A stretch of DNA of 35,116 bases from Spirochaetota bacterium (GTDB lineage: Bacteria; Spirochaetota; Spirochaetia; Treponematales; UBA12059): NCBI GenBank assembly GCA_018815555.1, contig JAHIWF010000087.1:1-35116 (forward strand), written 5' to 3'. Shown here one piece after another: positions 5,477-11,508 of the stretch. The notes under the pieces are model-generated. The model ran no database searches. It was given only the letters and a program-made list of their open reading frames with translations, and was not told the DNA's origin. Position numbers and translations under genes: made by a program. How positions within the stretch are numbered: the stretch's first letter is position 1; each line of letters starts with the position of its first letter.

Positions 5477-5959
5477 ATGACCAATGGTTTTAGTATGGGT
5501 GGATTAATCATTCTGGCACGGCATCCGGTTTTCCTGTCGGCGCTCATGAGCTGGTTTGTAGCCCAATTTGCAAAAGCCCTTATCTCATCATTGCGCCATC
5601 CGGCCGGAAGTTTTAGAGAAGTACTCCTGACTCTTTTTTGGAAAACCGGTGGCATGCCCTCCAGCCATAGTGCGCTTTCTGTTTCCATTACTACAGCAAT
5701 TGCCCATACCAGCGGCTTAAGCAGCGATGTTTTTATTCTTTCTTTTTTCTTCAGCATGGTTGTCATCCGTGATGCAGTCGGAGTACGGCGCTCTTCCGGA
5801 CTGCAGGCCAGGGCCATTAATCAGATGGGGAGGGAATTAGCTAAAGCTAACGGTACGGTATTCAGTCCGGTTAAAGAAGTGCACGGGCATACCATCCCCC
5901 AAATAATAGTCGGCAGCCTTTTAGGCTTCTTCATTGCCCTTGCCGTATGTACACTCTAA
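5477..5959 (+). CDS. DUF212 (divergent PAP2/acid phosphatase-like) membrane protein
   Basis: A 160-residue membrane protein. It has the DUF212 hallmarks: an N-terminal helix with SWFVAQFAKAL, then GGMPSSHSA (about 58-66), RDAVGVRR (about 97-104), and a C-terminal EVHGHTIPQIIVGSLLG. The PSSHSA and histidine motifs resemble those of PAP2 phosphatases, but the enzymatic activity of this subgroup is not established. It is the first gene after a divergent gap and overlaps the next gene by 13 bases, so it heads the strand that leads into the Rnf-like genes. Start at ATG 5477, with a weak AGGA about ten bases upstream; a later ATG six codons in is also possible. Confidence 0.85.
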   Translation: MTNGFSMGGLIILARHPVFLSALMSWFVAQFAKALISSLRHPAGSFREVLLTLFWKTGGMPSSHSALSVSITTAIAHTSGLSSDVFILSFFFSMVVIRDAVGVRRSSGLQARAINQMGRELAKANGTVFSPVKEVHGHTIPQIIVGSLLGFFIALAVCTL

Positions 5960-7437
5960 AATTGATTCTGAAATTTAGAAGACAAATTACCTGTTCCCTC
6001 GCACTGCTCATGGTGGCAGGCAGCGTTTTGTGGCTATTTCAACATAATGGCAGACCAGCAGCGATAAATGCTGACAACATAGCTTCACCTTCAGTTCTAT
6101 CTTTCTCAGATACTGATAATTATAACCGGGCTCTGTATCTATTACAAAACACTCTACAGCTCAGGCCGCTTGCTCTTGAAACAATACCAATACCATTTAC
6201 AGATTTTACCAAGATAAGCTTGCTTTCCTATGAACAGGCACAACGCCGGCTTATACAAGGCGATCCCCGAAGGACAAGCTATTTTGAAGAGTTAGCTGTT
6301 TTCTTCAGTGCCGAAGGTGATACAGGACGGTTGATCTACCTTTCTGATGAAGACACTACCAAATTGGATTTTATTATTGAACAACTATCTGCAGCTGGAA
6401 TTCAGTTTTTATATACGTCTGACAATAATCATGAATCAAAAAACAACTGGCTCGTCATTTTATTTTTCATTCTAATTCTAACCCTCACTCAGGAAAAAAG
6501 CCGGAAGCAGCTGTATCGGCTACTAGTCTATATCCCATGGCTACTTGTTCCGGTTTTTAATGATTCAATCATCGCAGCCTTATTGTCGCTCGCCTGTATC
6601 TACGCTGCCCATAATCTGACCAAGCTGTTGCCATATATACGCAGCAGTCATCCGAAACCGGCTATTACCTTATCCAACATTACCTCCGTGCTAACCCATT
6701 TAGGTCCGGTTAGTCTGGTTATTATACTATTCATTGTGCTGGACCGTTCTCTGTTGGGTTGGCTTCTTGTTTCTATGCTAATAAGCGGCCTAGTATTCCG
6801 TTTTCGAAATCAGCTCTATCAAGCTGATAATTTTTATCATTATCATAAAATACCGGTTTTCAAGCCAATTTTTCCAACCCGTACACTCAAGGCTGGCAGT
6901 GCTTTTTATATATATTTATTGTTCACCGTAATGTTTTTGGCAGCTTTATCTATACCCGCAGCAGGATTAAACAAATCGAACCCTTCCGATTTTTCCGATA
7001 CAGAAATTTTACACGTTTCTTCGTTTTCCGACCTGCAAGAATTGTTGCTCAAACATCTCTTTGTACAAAATGCCCTGACCGAAGGGATAATTGGCACGTA
7101 TGATCCAGGACAGCGTGTATATAATGTGCATTTTACAAATTATATGGATTCCAGGCCAAGCGGCATTGCCATCCAAAAAAAAGAATATTCAAACAGCATT
7201 TCGTCCCTTGAAGCTCAACTCATCCAGCTCGATTCCATAGCTTTTATGCCATTTCAGACACTCGTACCTGATTTGGCTATCCATCAAGCGGAAAATGGGC
7301 AAATTAAACAGGTAAAAGTACTTGATATTCATACCTATCTTGTCAGTATAATAGCGCTTGCCTTGTTCTTCGGGCATGGCATTTTATCCAGATTACTGCA
7401 TGTGCGCATGCTATCATATATGGAGCAACCGGATTAA
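5947..7437 (+). CDS. Polytopic membrane protein of unknown function at the head of the Rnf-like cluster
   Basis: I do not recognise this 496-residue protein. It has an N-terminal helix (about 14-32), a soluble loop of about 135 residues, then roughly six hydrophobic segments (about 168-181, 192-204, 206-222, 254-283 as a pair, 318-335). A second soluble region of about 120 residues follows (340-460), and a final helix at about 461-477. No iron-sulphur, flavin or nucleotide motif is visible, and it has only two cysteines. It overlaps the gene before it by 13 bases and its TAA shares a base with the ATG of rnfC, so it is translationally coupled to the Rnf-like genes. An accessory or structural role in that complex is an inference from position only. 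Confidence 0.8.
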   Translation: MYTLKLILKFRRQITCSLALLMVAGSVLWLFQHNGRPAAINADNIASPSVLSFSDTDNYNRALYLLQNTLQLRPLALETIPIPFTDFTKISLLSYEQAQRRLIQGDPRRTSYFEELAVFFSAEGDTGRLIYLSDEDTTKLDFIIEQLSAAGIQFLYTSDNNHESKNNWLVILFFILILTLTQEKSRKQLYRLLVYIPWLLVPVFNDSIIAALLSLACIYAAHNLTKLLPYIRSSHPKPAITLSNITSVLTHLGPVSLVIILFIVLDRSLLGWLLVSMLISGLVFRFRNQLYQADNFYHYHKIPVFKPIFPTRTLKAGSAFYIYLLFTVMFLAALSIPAAGLNKSNPSDFSDTEILHVSSFSDLQELLLKHLFVQNALTEGIIGTYDPGQRVYNVHFTNYMDSRPSGIAIQKKEYSNSISSLEAQLIQLDSIAFMPFQTLVPDLAIHQAENGQIKQVKVLDIHTYLVSIIALALFFGHGILSRLLHVRMLSYMEQPD

Positions 7438-8732
7438 TGAGGCGTATCAAAAAATTCAGGCATGGCGGGTTATATCAACGTGGTCAGGCTTTTGTCGGCG
7501 GCCAATCAATAGAAAATGCCTATCTGCCCAATCATGCATTGCTGATTTTTCGTGAGCACGAAGCTGCCGGCGAACCGGACCTTGCAGTTAATGAAGGTCA
7601 ACTGGTTAATGAAGGCCAATTGTTAGCCAAGGCAACTCGCAATAATGCCCTTAATGTTCATGCTTCGATTCCGGGAATTGTACGCAAAATCATGACGATT
7701 CCGTCCCCAGAAGGCTTTAATACCCGTGCATTGGTTCTCAGTCTGCAAGGACATTTTAAATTAAACGGAGCTATATCTGGCAAACGCCCATGGCAGTCAC
7801 TGAATCGTCATGAATTATCGTTTGTTTTACAAGAAAAAGGTGTAGCCTGCACTGCGACTGGTCTTGGGCTTCACCAAATTCTTGGTAACGCCCATGGTGT
7901 TGATACTTTGATAATCAATGCTATTGATAGCACTAACTATCCGGCACACGAAATTGTTATACTGGAAGAATATCTGAATGAGGTTATGGAAGGTTGTGCA
8001 ATTATTAAAAAAGCCAGCACTGTCCAATCCGTGTTAGTTGCTTTGTCCGGCTCACGAAACCAGAAACTTGAAGTCAATATTGCAAAAGCTGCCGAAAGTT
8101 TTGATTTGCAGTATCGAATCGAGTACTTCAGCGATAAATATCCACAAGCCTTTCCACATCAGATTATCTCCGCTTTAGGTGTTAATAAGAACAAAAACCC
8201 TTGTCTGTTTCTCGTTCCAGGTACCTTATATGCAGTGTACAATGCAGTCAGCCTGAACAGGCCGCATATAGATCAATTTGTTACTTTTGGTGGCGATGTA
8301 CTTAAACATCACCAGCTGCTTAAAGTAAGAATAGGTACACCAGTGGGGCGGCTCATAGAAGAGTGCGGGGGGTTTATCCATGCTCCTGAAATCATTGCAC
8401 TCAATAATCCAATGGTAAATGGTTGTATTTCCAATCTGGATACTCCGGTATCTAAAACAACCCGATCTGTATGGGCTTTATCAAAATCCGCCACTAGACT
8501 GGGGGTTCCCGATAATTGCATTCGATGCGGGGCCTGCATTCAGGTTTGTCCTGAAAGGCTTGATCCATATTTGATGTACAAGCTACTTGGTTCAGGCAGT
8601 ATAGAAAAAATCCGGGGACAATTGGATGCATGCACTAGTTGTGGAGCTTGTTCATATGTATGTCGTTCCCGGATACCACTCTCTGTACATTTTAAAAATA
8701 AAAAAAAGGAAAAGCTGAAAGATGAACAATGA
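7437..8732 (+). CDS. rnfC: RnfC-like electron-transport subunit with degenerate FMN/NADH site
   Basis: A 431-residue soluble protein. The N-terminal RnfC sandwich domain is recognisable: HGG at 9-11, GEPDLAVNEGQ, and NVHASIPGIV at 73-82. The SLBB-side motif GTPVGRLIEECGGF (300-313) is also present. Two complete [4Fe-4S] motifs lie near the C-terminus, with cysteines 361/364/367/371 and 399/402/405/409. Between them, the glycine-rich GxGGAxFP loop expected near residue 137 reads VACTATGLG, and the ECEP motif expected near residue 163 reads IDSTNYP. In Rnf and NuoF proteins these segments bind FMN and NADH. The start is at ATG 7437, overlapping the previous stop by one base; the stop overlaps rnfD. 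Confidence 0.88.
   Translation: MRRIKKFRHGGLYQRGQAFVGGQSIENAYLPNHALLIFREHEAAGEPDLAVNEGQLVNEGQLLAKATRNNALNVHASIPGIVRKIMTIPSPEGFNTRALVLSLQGHFKLNGAISGKRPWQSLNRHELSFVLQEKGVACTATGLGLHQILGNAHGVDTLIINAIDSTNYPAHEIVILEEYLNEVMEGCAIIKKASTVQSVLVALSGSRNQKLEVNIAKAAESFDLQYRIEYFSDKYPQAFPHQIISALGVNKNKNPCLFLVPGTLYAVYNAVSLNRPHIDQFVTFGGDVLKHHQLLKVRIGTPVGRLIEECGGFIHAPEIIALNNPMVNGCISNLDTPVSKTTRSVWALSKSATRLGVPDNCIRCGACIQVCPERLDPYLMYKLLGSGSIEKIRGQLDACTSCGACSYVCRSRIPLSVHFKNKKKEKLKDEQ
7587..7622 (+). repeat. Abutting 18-bp tandem repeat inside rnfC
   Basis: Bases 7587-7604 and 7605-7622 are adjacent copies that agree at 16 of 18 positions and encode VNEGQL twice. The duplicated stretch lies in the N-terminal sandwich domain. 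Confidence 0.85.
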
Positions 8733-9798
8733 TCGGATCAGTAAGTCCATCCCTCCTCATGTACATACCTGGCAAACAGGACGAAAATCTATCTGGATTG
8801 CGGTTCTTACATTAATACCGGTTATCGCATGGTCTATCGTGCTCTTTGGCCTGCCAGCGATATATATCTGGGGTAGTACAATCTTTACTGCACTTATTAC
8901 AGACGGTATTTCTTCGCTGGTTATGCATAAGAAATTCTATGTTAGTGACGCCTCTGTACTTACCGGCATATTGATCGCCGCCGCCATGCCGGCAACTGTA
9001 CCATTGTATATTCCTATACTGGCAAGTATTTTCGCTATTTTAGTAGTTCGACAGTTCTTTGGTGGCGTTGGTTCTAATTGGATGAATCCAGCAATGGCTG
9101 GTATTGCCTTTGCTTATGTTAATTGGCCTCAGAGCATGCTGCCGCAGCTAAATCCGCTAAACTGGCAATTGGATACCCTTACTGGCGCTAGTCCGATGGC
9201 TGCGATCCAGGAAGGATTCAATGCATACTATAATACCAGCCCTAGTATTATGTCGGGCCTAATTTCCGGCGCTGACCAGGCTGTTACCAGTTTTTTAAAT
9301 ATTTGGATATTCAACCCCCTACATGCAAAACTACCAGAAGGCTATGTAAATTTTCTATTGGGCTTAAATGCCAATACCTTAGGCGAAGCCGGTTTGCTAT
9401 TCATCATACTTGGTTCAATTGTCCTGATATCATTGAATCTGGTTAAAATTGAAATACCGGCGGCTTTGTTTATTATGTATCTTGTTCTGGTAAAAATATT
9501 CGGATTAGGAATCTCCGATCTGCCTACAGTTGATACCAATATTCTTACTAGTCTGACTATGGGAGGATTCTTGCTTTGTACATTCTACTATGCGACTGAT
9601 CCGGTAAGCTCTCCGGTAACAAGAGCAGGAATGATATTCTATGGTATTTTAGTTGCGTTCTTGTTCTATATTTTTTCCCGACATCGTGCATTTATTGAAG
9701 GTGGCGCTTTCGCGGTTATAATAGCCAATATTTTTGTTTCATCAATTGATAAATTAGTAATTCGGATCAAGATTTTACTGCGGAGCAAATCCGCATGA
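8722..9798 (+). CDS. rnfD: RnfD-like membrane subunit with covalent-flavin motif
   Basis: A 358-residue polytopic membrane protein of the RnfD/NqrB family. FGGVGSNWMNPAMAG (113-127) matches the conserved FGG-x-G-x-N-x2-NPA segment. DTLTGAS (151-157) fits the D-x-x-[ST]-G-A-[TS] site where ApbE-type transferases attach FMN through a phosphoester; the acceptor would be Ser157 rather than the commoner Thr. YYATDPVSSPVTRAG near residues 290-304 is the second family signature. Of all subunits in this cluster it is the best conserved. Overlaps of 11 bases with rnfC and 4 with rnfG show tight coupling. No apbE gene is in the window. Confidence 0.93.
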   Translation: MNNDRISKSIPPHVHTWQTGRKSIWIAVLTLIPVIAWSIVLFGLPAIYIWGSTIFTALITDGISSLVMHKKFYVSDASVLTGILIAAAMPATVPLYIPILASIFAILVVRQFFGGVGSNWMNPAMAGIAFAYVNWPQSMLPQLNPLNWQLDTLTGASPMAAIQEGFNAYYNTSPSIMSGLISGADQAVTSFLNIWIFNPLHAKLPEGYVNFLLGLNANTLGEAGLLFIILGSIVLISLNLVKIEIPAALFIMYLVLVKIFGLGISDLPTVDTNILTSLTMGGFLLCTFYYATDPVSSPVTRAGMIFYGILVAFLFYIFSRHRAFIEGGAFAVIIANIFVSSIDKLVIRIKILLRSKSA

Positions 9799-10274
9799 AC
9801 AAGCAAATCATAATTCGTTATATAATATTGTTTCTTATACTATCAGTTTTAGTAGCGGCGGCAGTGGTACTAGCAAGGTATGCAGAACTATATTCGACCA
9901 AAACATGGAAAAATCTTGCCAGAATAAATTCTAACCAGACTATAGGCGAAAGCAGCTTCTATTTTGTACGCCAAGACAATCTTAAAGCTGTAATAAAATC
10001 GAAAGACGAAACATTGCTTTTTACCCATTTTGATTTTTCCGGAACCAGTTCATGGTATTTGTTGCGATATGATATAAATGCAACGCTGCAGAGAACTGTG
10101 AAACTTGACGCTACGAACAGTTCTCCAGCCAGTCAGATTTTCGCGGAATTAGCTAAACTTCATGAAAATGATAATACGACCACACCTACATCAAATATCC
10201 CCGAGTTGCTCTGGAAAGCTCGAACCTTTAGCTTCAGCACTTATATCCAGCCAGAGGAGAGGGAGAAACCATGA
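9795..10274 (+). CDS. rnfG: RnfG-position single-helix periplasmic subunit, divergent
   Basis: A 159-residue protein with an N-terminal membrane helix (about 7-27) and a soluble domain predicted outside the membrane. I name it from its place between rnfD and rnfE and from this topology; sequence support is weak. RnfG proteins are usually about 180-220 residues and carry a C-terminal D-x-x-[ST]-G-A-T flavinylation site. Here the nearest string is LDATNSSPAS (104-113), which lacks the G-A-T core, and DFSGTSS (80-86) has the wrong spacing. A covalent FMN is therefore unlikely unless the motif has drifted. It overlaps its neighbours by four bases on both sides. It could also be a new small subunit that replaced RnfG. 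Confidence 0.6.
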   Translation: MNKQIIIRYIILFLILSVLVAAAVVLARYAELYSTKTWKNLARINSNQTIGESSFYFVRQDNLKAVIKSKDETLLFTHFDFSGTSSWYLLRYDINATLQRTVKLDATNSSPASQIFAELAKLHENDNTTTPTSNIPELLWKARTFSFSTYIQPEEREKP

Positions 10275-10864
10275 ATACTCAGCAGTATAGTTCAGTAGAA
10301 AATAAGTATTTTTTACTTTTTCTTGGCATTATGCCAATCTTGATAGCTGCCGAATCACTGAAGCTTGGATTAATTATTGGATCACTCTATTTTTTCATGA
10401 TCTCCATCGCAGTACTAACAGTTTCATTATCCAGGTTTTTTTCTGATTATAACTTCTTTTTTTTCCTGCAAAACTTCATTTACGCGCTCATCTTGGTTTT
10501 TGTAACCACGCTATTGCGTATTATTTCTCCGTTCTTGTTTGAGGAATTACATCCGGTTTTATTTATGTTCGCATTCACTACTCCGGTTCTAACCATATTT
10601 GCAGCGGATTCTAAGCAAAGTGATCAGGATTGGGCATGGCAAAAAATTTCCGAAGGATTATTATACATGACTGCGCTGGTCATTATAGGTTTTCTGCGTG
10701 AATTATTGGGGACTGGATCAATTACACTTTTCAAATCTCAAAATACCGGATCTGAATCATTATTAGCTATCTTTCTCCAGCCTTCCGGTGCTTTTATCCT
10801 TATTGGCATCTTATTTGCTGTATTTAAATTTGTTTCGCGAAAAACCAAAGGAGGCGCTGCATGA
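10271..10864 (+). CDS. rnfE: RnfE-like membrane subunit without cysteines
   Basis: A 197-residue protein with about six membrane segments. Family marks include LLFLGIMPILIAAESL (15-30), IGFLRELLGTGSITLF and LQPSGAFILIG near the C-terminus, all in the order of RnfE/NqrD. In the family a cysteine follows LG[LI] in the first half-repeat and another follows N in the second; together with two in RnfA they bind a [2Fe-2S] cluster in the membrane. Here the first is Met21 and the second position reads TTPVLT, and the whole protein contains no cysteine. It overlaps rnfG by four bases and rnfA by four bases. Confidence 0.82.
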   Translation: MNTQQYSSVENKYFLLFLGIMPILIAAESLKLGLIIGSLYFFMISIAVLTVSLSRFFSDYNFFFFLQNFIYALILVFVTTLLRIISPFLFEELHPVLFMFAFTTPVLTIFAADSKQSDQDWAWQKISEGLLYMTALVIIGFLRELLGTGSITLFKSQNTGSESLLAIFLQPSGAFILIGILFAVFKFVSRKTKGGAA

Positions 10865-11445
10865 ATTTTGTTAGTTTCGCTTTTTATGCGGTTTTCGGAA
10901 CCAATATATTGCTACATTGGGGAGTAATACCTCATTCGATGAAGTTCTCCTTTATGTCCTGGCAACGCTTATTGATAATCACTATAGTGACCACATTATT
11001 TTCATTGCTGCAAGCCCTTTTTTTCCGTTATGTCCTACAACCTTTTGGCCTGATCAATCTTTTACCGGTCTTTTATTTCGCTTTTTTTTCATTAAGCATG
11101 TTTTTATATCTTATCTATAAAAAATATATCGTTAAAAGTGAACTTGTTTTTATGGACTTTTTTACTGAACCGGTTTCTGTTTCTCTGCTTGTCTATTTAG
11201 GTGTTCTCATTGCCGGCATGCAGCAAGCAAACCTGACCCAAATAATGGGAATCGGTTTCTTTTCTGTTCTAGGTTATTGTGCGGCGGCAATTTTGGTCAA
11301 TGATATAATGGAGAGATTGGAACTTCAAGATATTCCATACGTATTTAGAGGGTATCCAATTTTGTTCATAACCGTAGGATTGATTTTACTTGCATTCTCC
11401 GGATTGGATAAAGTTTTTTTCTATGGCATTTTTAATAAGCTTTAG
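10861..11445 (+). CDS. rnfA: RnfA-like membrane subunit lacking the cluster cysteines
   Basis: A 194-residue protein with about six membrane helices, paralogous to the preceding RnfE-like protein. TNILLHWGVIP (14-24) aligns with the family N-x-x-L-x-x-x-L-G-[LI]-C-P segment, with Ile23 in the cysteine position. PVSVSLLVYLG (after about residue 102) aligns with the second half-repeat P-L-I-x-V-N-C-x-x-L-G, with Leu in place of Cys. IMERLELQDIPYVFRGYPILFITVGL matches the conserved C-terminal end (written here in part: ERLELQDIP, then GYPILFI). One cysteine remains, in LGYC, at a non-family position. It is the last gene of the cluster and no rnfB follows. Confidence 0.82.
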   Translation: MNFVSFAFYAVFGTNILLHWGVIPHSMKFSFMSWQRLLIITIVTTLFSLLQALFFRYVLQPFGLINLLPVFYFAFFSLSMFLYLIYKKYIVKSELVFMDFFTEPVSVSLLVYLGVLIAGMQQANLTQIMGIGFFSVLGYCAAAILVNDIMERLELQDIPYVFRGYPILFITVGLILLAFSGLDKVFFYGIFNKL

Positions 11446-11477
11446 ATTGGCTATTGCTAAATAAATCATCCATGATA

Positions 11478-11486
11478 TGCTATAGT
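11478..11486 (+). promoter_or_regulatory. Possible extended -10 promoter for the GH57-like gene
   Basis: TGCTATAGT matches the extended -10 form TGnTATAAT at eight of nine considered positions. It lies 22 bases before ATG 11509, in the 63-base gap after rnfA. No -35 at normal spacing is seen. No terminator hairpin is visible in this gap, so read-through from the rnf genes is also possible. Confidence 0.35.
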
Positions 11487-11508
11487 TGAAAAGCAAGGGA
11501 AAAACGGG

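Follow-up and report, generated by a model that had tools for sequence, protein, structure and literature searches.

A treponeme-type Rnf orthologue predicted to be stripped of most of its redox centres, with a counterpart in Treponema pallidum

Neither Rnf nor Nqr can work by its textbook mechanism without the [2Fe-2S] cluster of the paired membrane subunits RnfA and RnfE (the A/E cluster). What, then, does an Rnf-like complex do if the cysteines of this cluster are missing? Our study addresses this question for an operon of a Spirochaetota bacterium (contig JAHIWF010000087.1; the whole stretch of 35,116 nucleotides that was analysed is referred to here as the window), in which a preliminary description had reported the loss of all four cluster cysteines. 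In canonical Rnf the electrons pass from ferredoxin to RnfB, the A/E cluster, the FMN of RnfG, the FMN and then the riboflavin of RnfD, the Fe-S clusters of RnfC, the FMN of RnfC and finally NAD+ (PMC11889175). In Acetobacterium woodii, mutation of the AE1 Cys, of the FMN-G Thr or of the riboflavin ligands abolishes Rnf activity, and removal of the cluster cysteines leads to loss of ferredoxin:NAD+ activity (PMC11889175).

The cysteine columns were placed by reference to two further, canonical Rnf/Nqr copies from the same genome, on contigs C134 and C96, and to the solved RnfE structures 7zc6 and 9eri. RnfE and RnfA of both copies carry a cysteine at LG-[LI]-C and another at N-C. In the alignment the four corresponding columns of the window proteins, placed to an accuracy of about one or two residues, hold Met21 and Thr104 (or the neighbouring Pro105) in RnfE and Ile23 and Leu109 in RnfA, and no cysteine lies near any of them. 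The reported absence of all four ligands is thus borne out, as are the complete lack of cysteine in RnfE with Met21 in the LG-[LI]-C column, and the isoleucine and leucine in RnfA, whose one cysteine is unrelated to the cluster. Only the second RnfE column needs amending: the loss of the cysteine stands, and the column falls on the threonine just ahead of the proline that had been named. A sequencing error at these codons is ruled out because at least a dozen independent genomes of this clade, surveyed at the same columns, show the identical state. A lone cysteine at a cluster column in loci L042 and L064 is probably an alignment coincidence.

Both window proteins match the Pfam family Rnf-Nqr. 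Their AlphaFold models have pLDDT values of 88.7 (RnfE) and 80.5 (RnfA) and find their best PDB matches in RnfE/NqrD and RnfA/NqrE, respectively (TM about 0.64-0.76). The RnfE model has helices broken at residues 20 and 103, adjoining two of the cluster positions. The ligands are therefore lost while the fold, as modelled, is retained, in agreement with the preliminary description.

The window unites homologous C, D, E and A subunits in one operon (Table 1), and ATGA-type overlaps join the C, D, G, E and A genes, in keeping with the translational coupling noted earlier. There is no rnfB in the operon; a GH57 gene follows rnfA after 63 bases. Upstream of rnfC stands H496, a fast-evolving membrane protein that belongs to no known family and occupies this position at most loci. 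It is kept at most orthologous loci, full canonical Rnf loci included, and may perhaps be an extra subunit of spirochaete Rnf; no orthologue was detected at the T. pallidum locus.

Table 1. Coordinates of the operon features in the window.
Feature	Position	Strand	Remarks
H496	5947..7437	+	predicted membrane protein, 496 aa, 5' of rnfC; matches no known family
RnfC-like subunit	7437..8732	+	barrel-sandwich and SLBB parts kept; Gly-rich FMN/NADH and ECEPY motifs missing
RnfC eight Cys (361, 364, 367, 371, 399, 402, 405, 409), two predicted [4Fe-4S] sites	8517..8663	+	
RnfD-like subunit	8722..9798	+	riboflavin residues Asn122 and Asp293 kept
RnfD DTLTGAS, residues 151-157	9172..9192	+	exact ApbE flavinylation motif, Ser replacing Thr
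RnfG-like protein, single-TM, 159 aa	9795..10274	+	no FMN_bind match, no flavinylation motif
RnfE-like subunit, 197 aa	10271..10864	+	zero Cys; fold kept
RnfE Met21, first [2Fe-2S] Cys column	10331..10333	+	helix break in model
RnfE Thr104-Pro105, second [2Fe-2S] Cys column	10580..10585	+	helix break in model
RnfA-like subunit, 194 aa	10861..11445	+	fold kept; one Cys, in later helix outside cluster region
RnfA Ile23, first [2Fe-2S] Cys column	10927..10929	+	
RnfA Leu109, second [2Fe-2S] Cys column	11185..11187	+	
Gap between rnfA and GH57, the place of rnfB in orthologous loci	11446..11508	+	gene-free

The A/E cysteines are not the only redox feature to be missing. Beyond what had been reported, there is no RnfB, RnfC has lost its FMN/NADH site and RnfG its flavinylation motif, and these losses go together with that of the cluster. 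Where the canonical RnfC of the same genome reads GIGGAGFP and ECEPYLT, the window RnfC has CTATGLGLH and DSTNYP, and its Pfam Complex1_51K score is 31.0 bits, below the cut-off, against 183.5 bits for the canonical copy. The motif DAITGATITF, present in RnfG of canonical syntenic loci, is missing from the window RnfG, in which neither an FMN_bind match nor a covalent-FMN motif was found. Other sites are kept. All eight cysteine ligands of the RnfC [4Fe-4S] clusters are present in the sequence, as they are throughout the clade (42 of 42 loci). The riboflavin residues N123 and D249 and the FMN-bearing T156 of A. woodii RnfD align with Asn122, Asp293 and Ser157, and DTLTGAS fits the ApbE motif D-x-x-[ST]-G-A-[ST] exactly; the genome encodes one ApbE gene. 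From these ligands and motifs the complex is predicted to carry the RnfD flavins and the RnfC clusters. The genome (G000) also has a separate canonical Rnf with RnfB on C134 (L037) and, on C96 (L038), an Nqr-like set with an NqrF-like reductase gene.

The order pseudouridine synthase / DUF212 / H496 / rnfC / rnfD / rnfG / rnfE / rnfA / (rnfB) / GH57, often followed by murC, recurs within the family, across the order and in further spirochaete records. Many of the syntenic loci are complete canonical Rnf (for example L095, L101, L109, L119 and L133), with GGATFP and ECEPY in RnfC, a GATITF-type motif in RnfG, the four A/E cysteines and an RnfB of about 21 cysteines. These full loci occupy the same place as the window operon, with H496 on the 5' side and GH57 on the 3' side, share its pseudouridine synthase and DUF212 neighbours where detected, and stand nearest to it in a tree of RnfC and RnfD. 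In this tree the loci that lack the NADH motif and have altered A/E subunits form one clade nested inside canonical syntenic Rnf (support 0.976-1.0). Judged from gene order and sequence, complete spirochaete Rnf has its direct positional orthologue in the window operon, which has been stripped of most of its predicted redox centres while keeping its proteins. The loci were drawn with the bait peptide LIEECGGF, which biases the sample, and many come from metagenome assemblies; the bait also drew ordinary Rnf of Nitrospirota and Firmicutes, which served as outgroups.

The relatives display the losses in an order, from the NADH site of RnfC through the RnfG flavin and the A/E cysteines to RnfB. 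The RnfC motif is the sole loss in L087 and L059. L058, L051 and L053 have lost the RnfG motif too and keep four cysteines and RnfB; for L051 and L053 the absence of the motif is the result of the automated scan. Since the automated flavinylation pattern missed GATITF variants, RnfG proteins were otherwise read by eye. Three to one A/E cysteines remain, with RnfB, in L052, L056, L099, L100 and L104, one in L086, and none in L054, L103, L115, L067, L070, L071, L088 and L135, all of which still have RnfB. The window, L039-L050, L066, L060/62/64/65/72/138 and Treponema proper have at most one A/E cysteine and no RnfB. None of the clade's 24 loci without RnfB retains more than one of the four cysteines, and all 8 with three or four cysteines have RnfB (Fisher P 0.0007, uncorrected for kinship; about three independent losses of RnfB). 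The window complex, first taken for a single oddity, instead marks one end of a series, found in many genomes, in which an orthologous spirochaete Rnf has been stripped by degrees.

A strict rule by which loss of the cluster precedes that of RnfB is obeyed within the clade and is broken outside it by L093 (8244-10690) and L105 (1280-3906), in which syntenic C, D, E and A genes with all four cluster cysteines occur and RnfG and RnfB are both missing. Several variants were observed besides. RnfB shrinks ahead of its loss in L067, L070, L071 and L086, where 13-19 cysteines are left, and the N-terminal FeS motif (CxxCxxxxC) is gone in the first three. The syntenic locus of L112, L116, L117 and L148 (and L144) consists only of H496, RnfC and RnfD, directly followed by GH57, and several of these retain the NADH motif of RnfC. 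A different change marks L139, L145, L147, L151, L155-L160 and L162 (mostly Nitrospirota), in which alanine replaces the second RnfE cluster cysteine (LIVAFASILARAE versus LIVVNCIILGRAE), leaving three ligands in an otherwise canonical Rnf; the RnfB of these loci is long, with 32-34 cysteines where intact.

The stripped genes have been maintained. Close pairs of stripped loci give dN/dS values (NG86) of 0.07-0.20 for E and A, 0.08-0.17 for C and 0.10-0.23 for D, alongside 0.06-0.10 for the neighbouring GH57 gene, and the reading frames are unbroken in every stripped or partly stripped locus that was read. The stripped E and A subunits are under strong purifying selection, which upholds the earlier judgement that their state is not decay.

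The same locus is present in the syphilis bacterium, T. pallidum. Genome G032 (1,139,633 bp) encodes a protein that matches TpN47 (PDB 1o75) almost throughout and is therefore T. pallidum. Its locus L057, at 172-176 kb, comprises C, D, G-like, E and A genes; published maps place tp0151 = rnfD at about 174 kb (PMC6103504, PMC11371664, PMC4403809) and describe TP0153 as a phosphatase-type protein and TP0154 as a pseudouridine synthase (PMC4403809), which fits the DUF212 and pseudouridine synthase genes of L057. The window operon and the RNF locus of T. pallidum are orthologous, sharing both their gene order and their neighbours. Like the window, L057 is without RnfB, the NADH motif of RnfC and all four A/E cysteines. 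It is stripped further: the RnfD flavinylation motif is gone, the riboflavin-site Asp has become Glu, H496 is absent, and the A and E subunits have ceased to match Pfam Rnf-Nqr. A search of the rest of this genome revealed neither a further Rnf-Nqr subunit nor an RnfB-type FeS domain. In the complete genomes of T. putidum and T. vincentii (L085, L089), which likewise have no RnfB, the first RnfE cysteine is the sole one kept. RnfD flavin residues are gone in several lineages of the clade, the FMN motif being lost in Treponema proper and T. pallidum, and the two [4Fe-4S] sites of RnfC are the only redox sites shared by every member, T. pallidum included.

Comparison with the known systems defines what is left. 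The window operon shares with canonical Rnf (A. woodii 9eri, Clostridium tetanomorphum 7zc6, Azotobacter vinelandii 8ahx) five homologous subunits in the usual order C, D, G, E, A, the E and A folds, the 2x[4Fe-4S] ligands of RnfC, and the riboflavin residues and ApbE motif of RnfD; it differs in having no RnfB, no A/E [2Fe-2S] cysteines, no RnfC FMN/NADH motif and no RnfG flavinylation motif. Na+-NQR likewise has no RnfB, and its B, C, D and E subunits are homologous to those of the window. However, Na+-NQR retains the [2Fe-2S] cluster, has gained NqrF and has a cofactor-free NqrA (PMC12174285), whereas the window complex keeps the RnfC Fe-S sites and has no NqrF replacement in its operon.

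Taken together, the absence of RnfB, the A/E cysteines, the RnfC FMN/NADH site and the RnfG motif implies that the complex is neither a ferredoxin:NAD+ nor a flavodoxin:NAD+ oxidoreductase, and that it would not pump ions by the A/E cluster mechanism. Rnf-type chemistry through the A/E pair is, on the evidence of these sequences, excluded, and the effect of cysteine removal in A. woodii (PMC11889175) supports the preliminary description on this point. Of the canonical chain, the three initial carriers and the final one are missing and a contiguous middle part is kept, namely the ligands or motifs for FMN-D, riboflavin-D and the RnfC Fe-S clusters. These kept sites adjoin each other in the U-shaped chain, which favours a wire that crosses the membrane once. 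We therefore propose, with a probability of roughly one half, that the complex is a stripped Rnf orthologue serving as a remnant wire from the RnfC Fe-S clusters to the flavins of RnfD, carried by a scaffold that does not pump. On the cytoplasmic side RnfC would be the docking site for a soluble Fe-S or flavin protein, electrons would cross the membrane once, between the RnfC Fe-S clusters and the riboflavin and FMN of RnfD, and a periplasmic partner near the RnfD flavin would form the other end, with RnfA, RnfE and RnfG retained as a non-redox scaffold. We infer this function from the kept sites; no candidate partner was found for either end of the wire. The conservation of RnfA and RnfE seems to exceed what a passive scaffold would need. 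The RnfD FMN motif and Asp are lost in other lineages of the clade, so the wire would not be the function of all members; where the RnfD flavin motif is gone (Treponema proper, T. pallidum), the membrane-docked RnfC with 2x[4Fe-4S] would be the last clear redox part.

Because only the RnfC clusters are left where the RnfD flavin sites have gone, the main rival is a membrane part that is redox-silent, acting as a transporter or scaffold, with the RnfC Fe-S clusters sensing redox state or iron, so as to gate this part or to serve a soluble partner. The cofactor-free A/E subunits keep their fold under purifying selection, and inward/outward switching is already how the inverted RnfA/RnfE pair of canonical Rnf works (PMC12174285, PMC11889175). 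Together with RnfC being the sole common redox site and the loss of RnfD flavin residues in several lineages, this makes such a function a serious, if less likely, possibility, but the riboflavin residues and the exact flavinylation motif that the window clade retains in RnfD would be needless in a redox-silent complex. A chemistry closer to the classical one, in which the cluster is held by other ligands, could appeal to the broken-helix geometry retained at the cluster site of the RnfE model; yet no Cys, His or Asp is conserved as a substitute at the cluster columns across the clade, and RnfB, which would donate the electrons, and the RnfG FMN, which would accept them next, are missing too, which leaves this the least credible of the readings considered.

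Two further explanations take the presence of other Rnf-Nqr sets as their starting point. Given the canonical Rnf (RnfB included) and the Nqr-like set encoded elsewhere in the window genome, subunits of the operon might serve as an alternative C/D module that assembles with the canonical RnfB, RnfA, RnfE or RnfG. We regard this as improbable: T. pallidum keeps the stripped operon although no further Rnf-Nqr subunit or RnfB-type domain was found in its genome, and the operon retains A and E genes of its own, in overlapping frames and under selection. The progressive loss of functional sites, and the canonical copy carried by many of the genomes, would also suit a redundant second Rnf in neutral decay. 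We reject this on the dN/dS values, and it is made still more improbable by the intact frames, the invariant RnfC cysteines and the fact that the sole copy in the reduced T. pallidum genome is kept.

The preliminary description had seen here a candidate for an undescribed system. In part this must be withdrawn, as the T. pallidum member has already been termed a "noncanonical" RNF (PMC7512555); what holds is that, a 2015 mBio paper proposing RNF aside, we found no published account of missing cofactors at the T. pallidum locus, and nothing relevant in the literature on Rnf without RnfB. The parts of the window complex are recognisably Rnf, within a visible evolutionary series, but four defining features of Rnf were looked for and are missing, and the complex is therefore not to be filed as a functional Rnf.

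The consequences reach beyond the window. T. pallidum RNF has been proposed to act as a flavodoxin:NAD+ ion pump (PMC7512555, PMC11717252, PMC11371664), and the T. pallidum sequence, as we read it, conflicts with this proposal, because it has no RnfB for electron input, no membrane cluster, no NADH site and no motifs for flavin attachment. The finding thus bears on how T. pallidum energises its membrane, for which the current proposal rests on this locus. On balance we lean slightly towards the view that, in treponeme-type spirochaetes including T. pallidum, the alternating-access A/E pair has taken on a new function, either non-redox or that of a single wire, under the control of the [4Fe-4S] clusters of RnfC. 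As the A/E cluster is essential to the textbook mechanism, a conserved complex that has been stripped of it stepwise constitutes a natural deletion series, which may reveal the role of each subunit and what the A/E pair is able to do without redox chemistry. If our reading is true, a redox pump would have been turned into another machine, with the steps of the loss still displayed by its surviving relatives.
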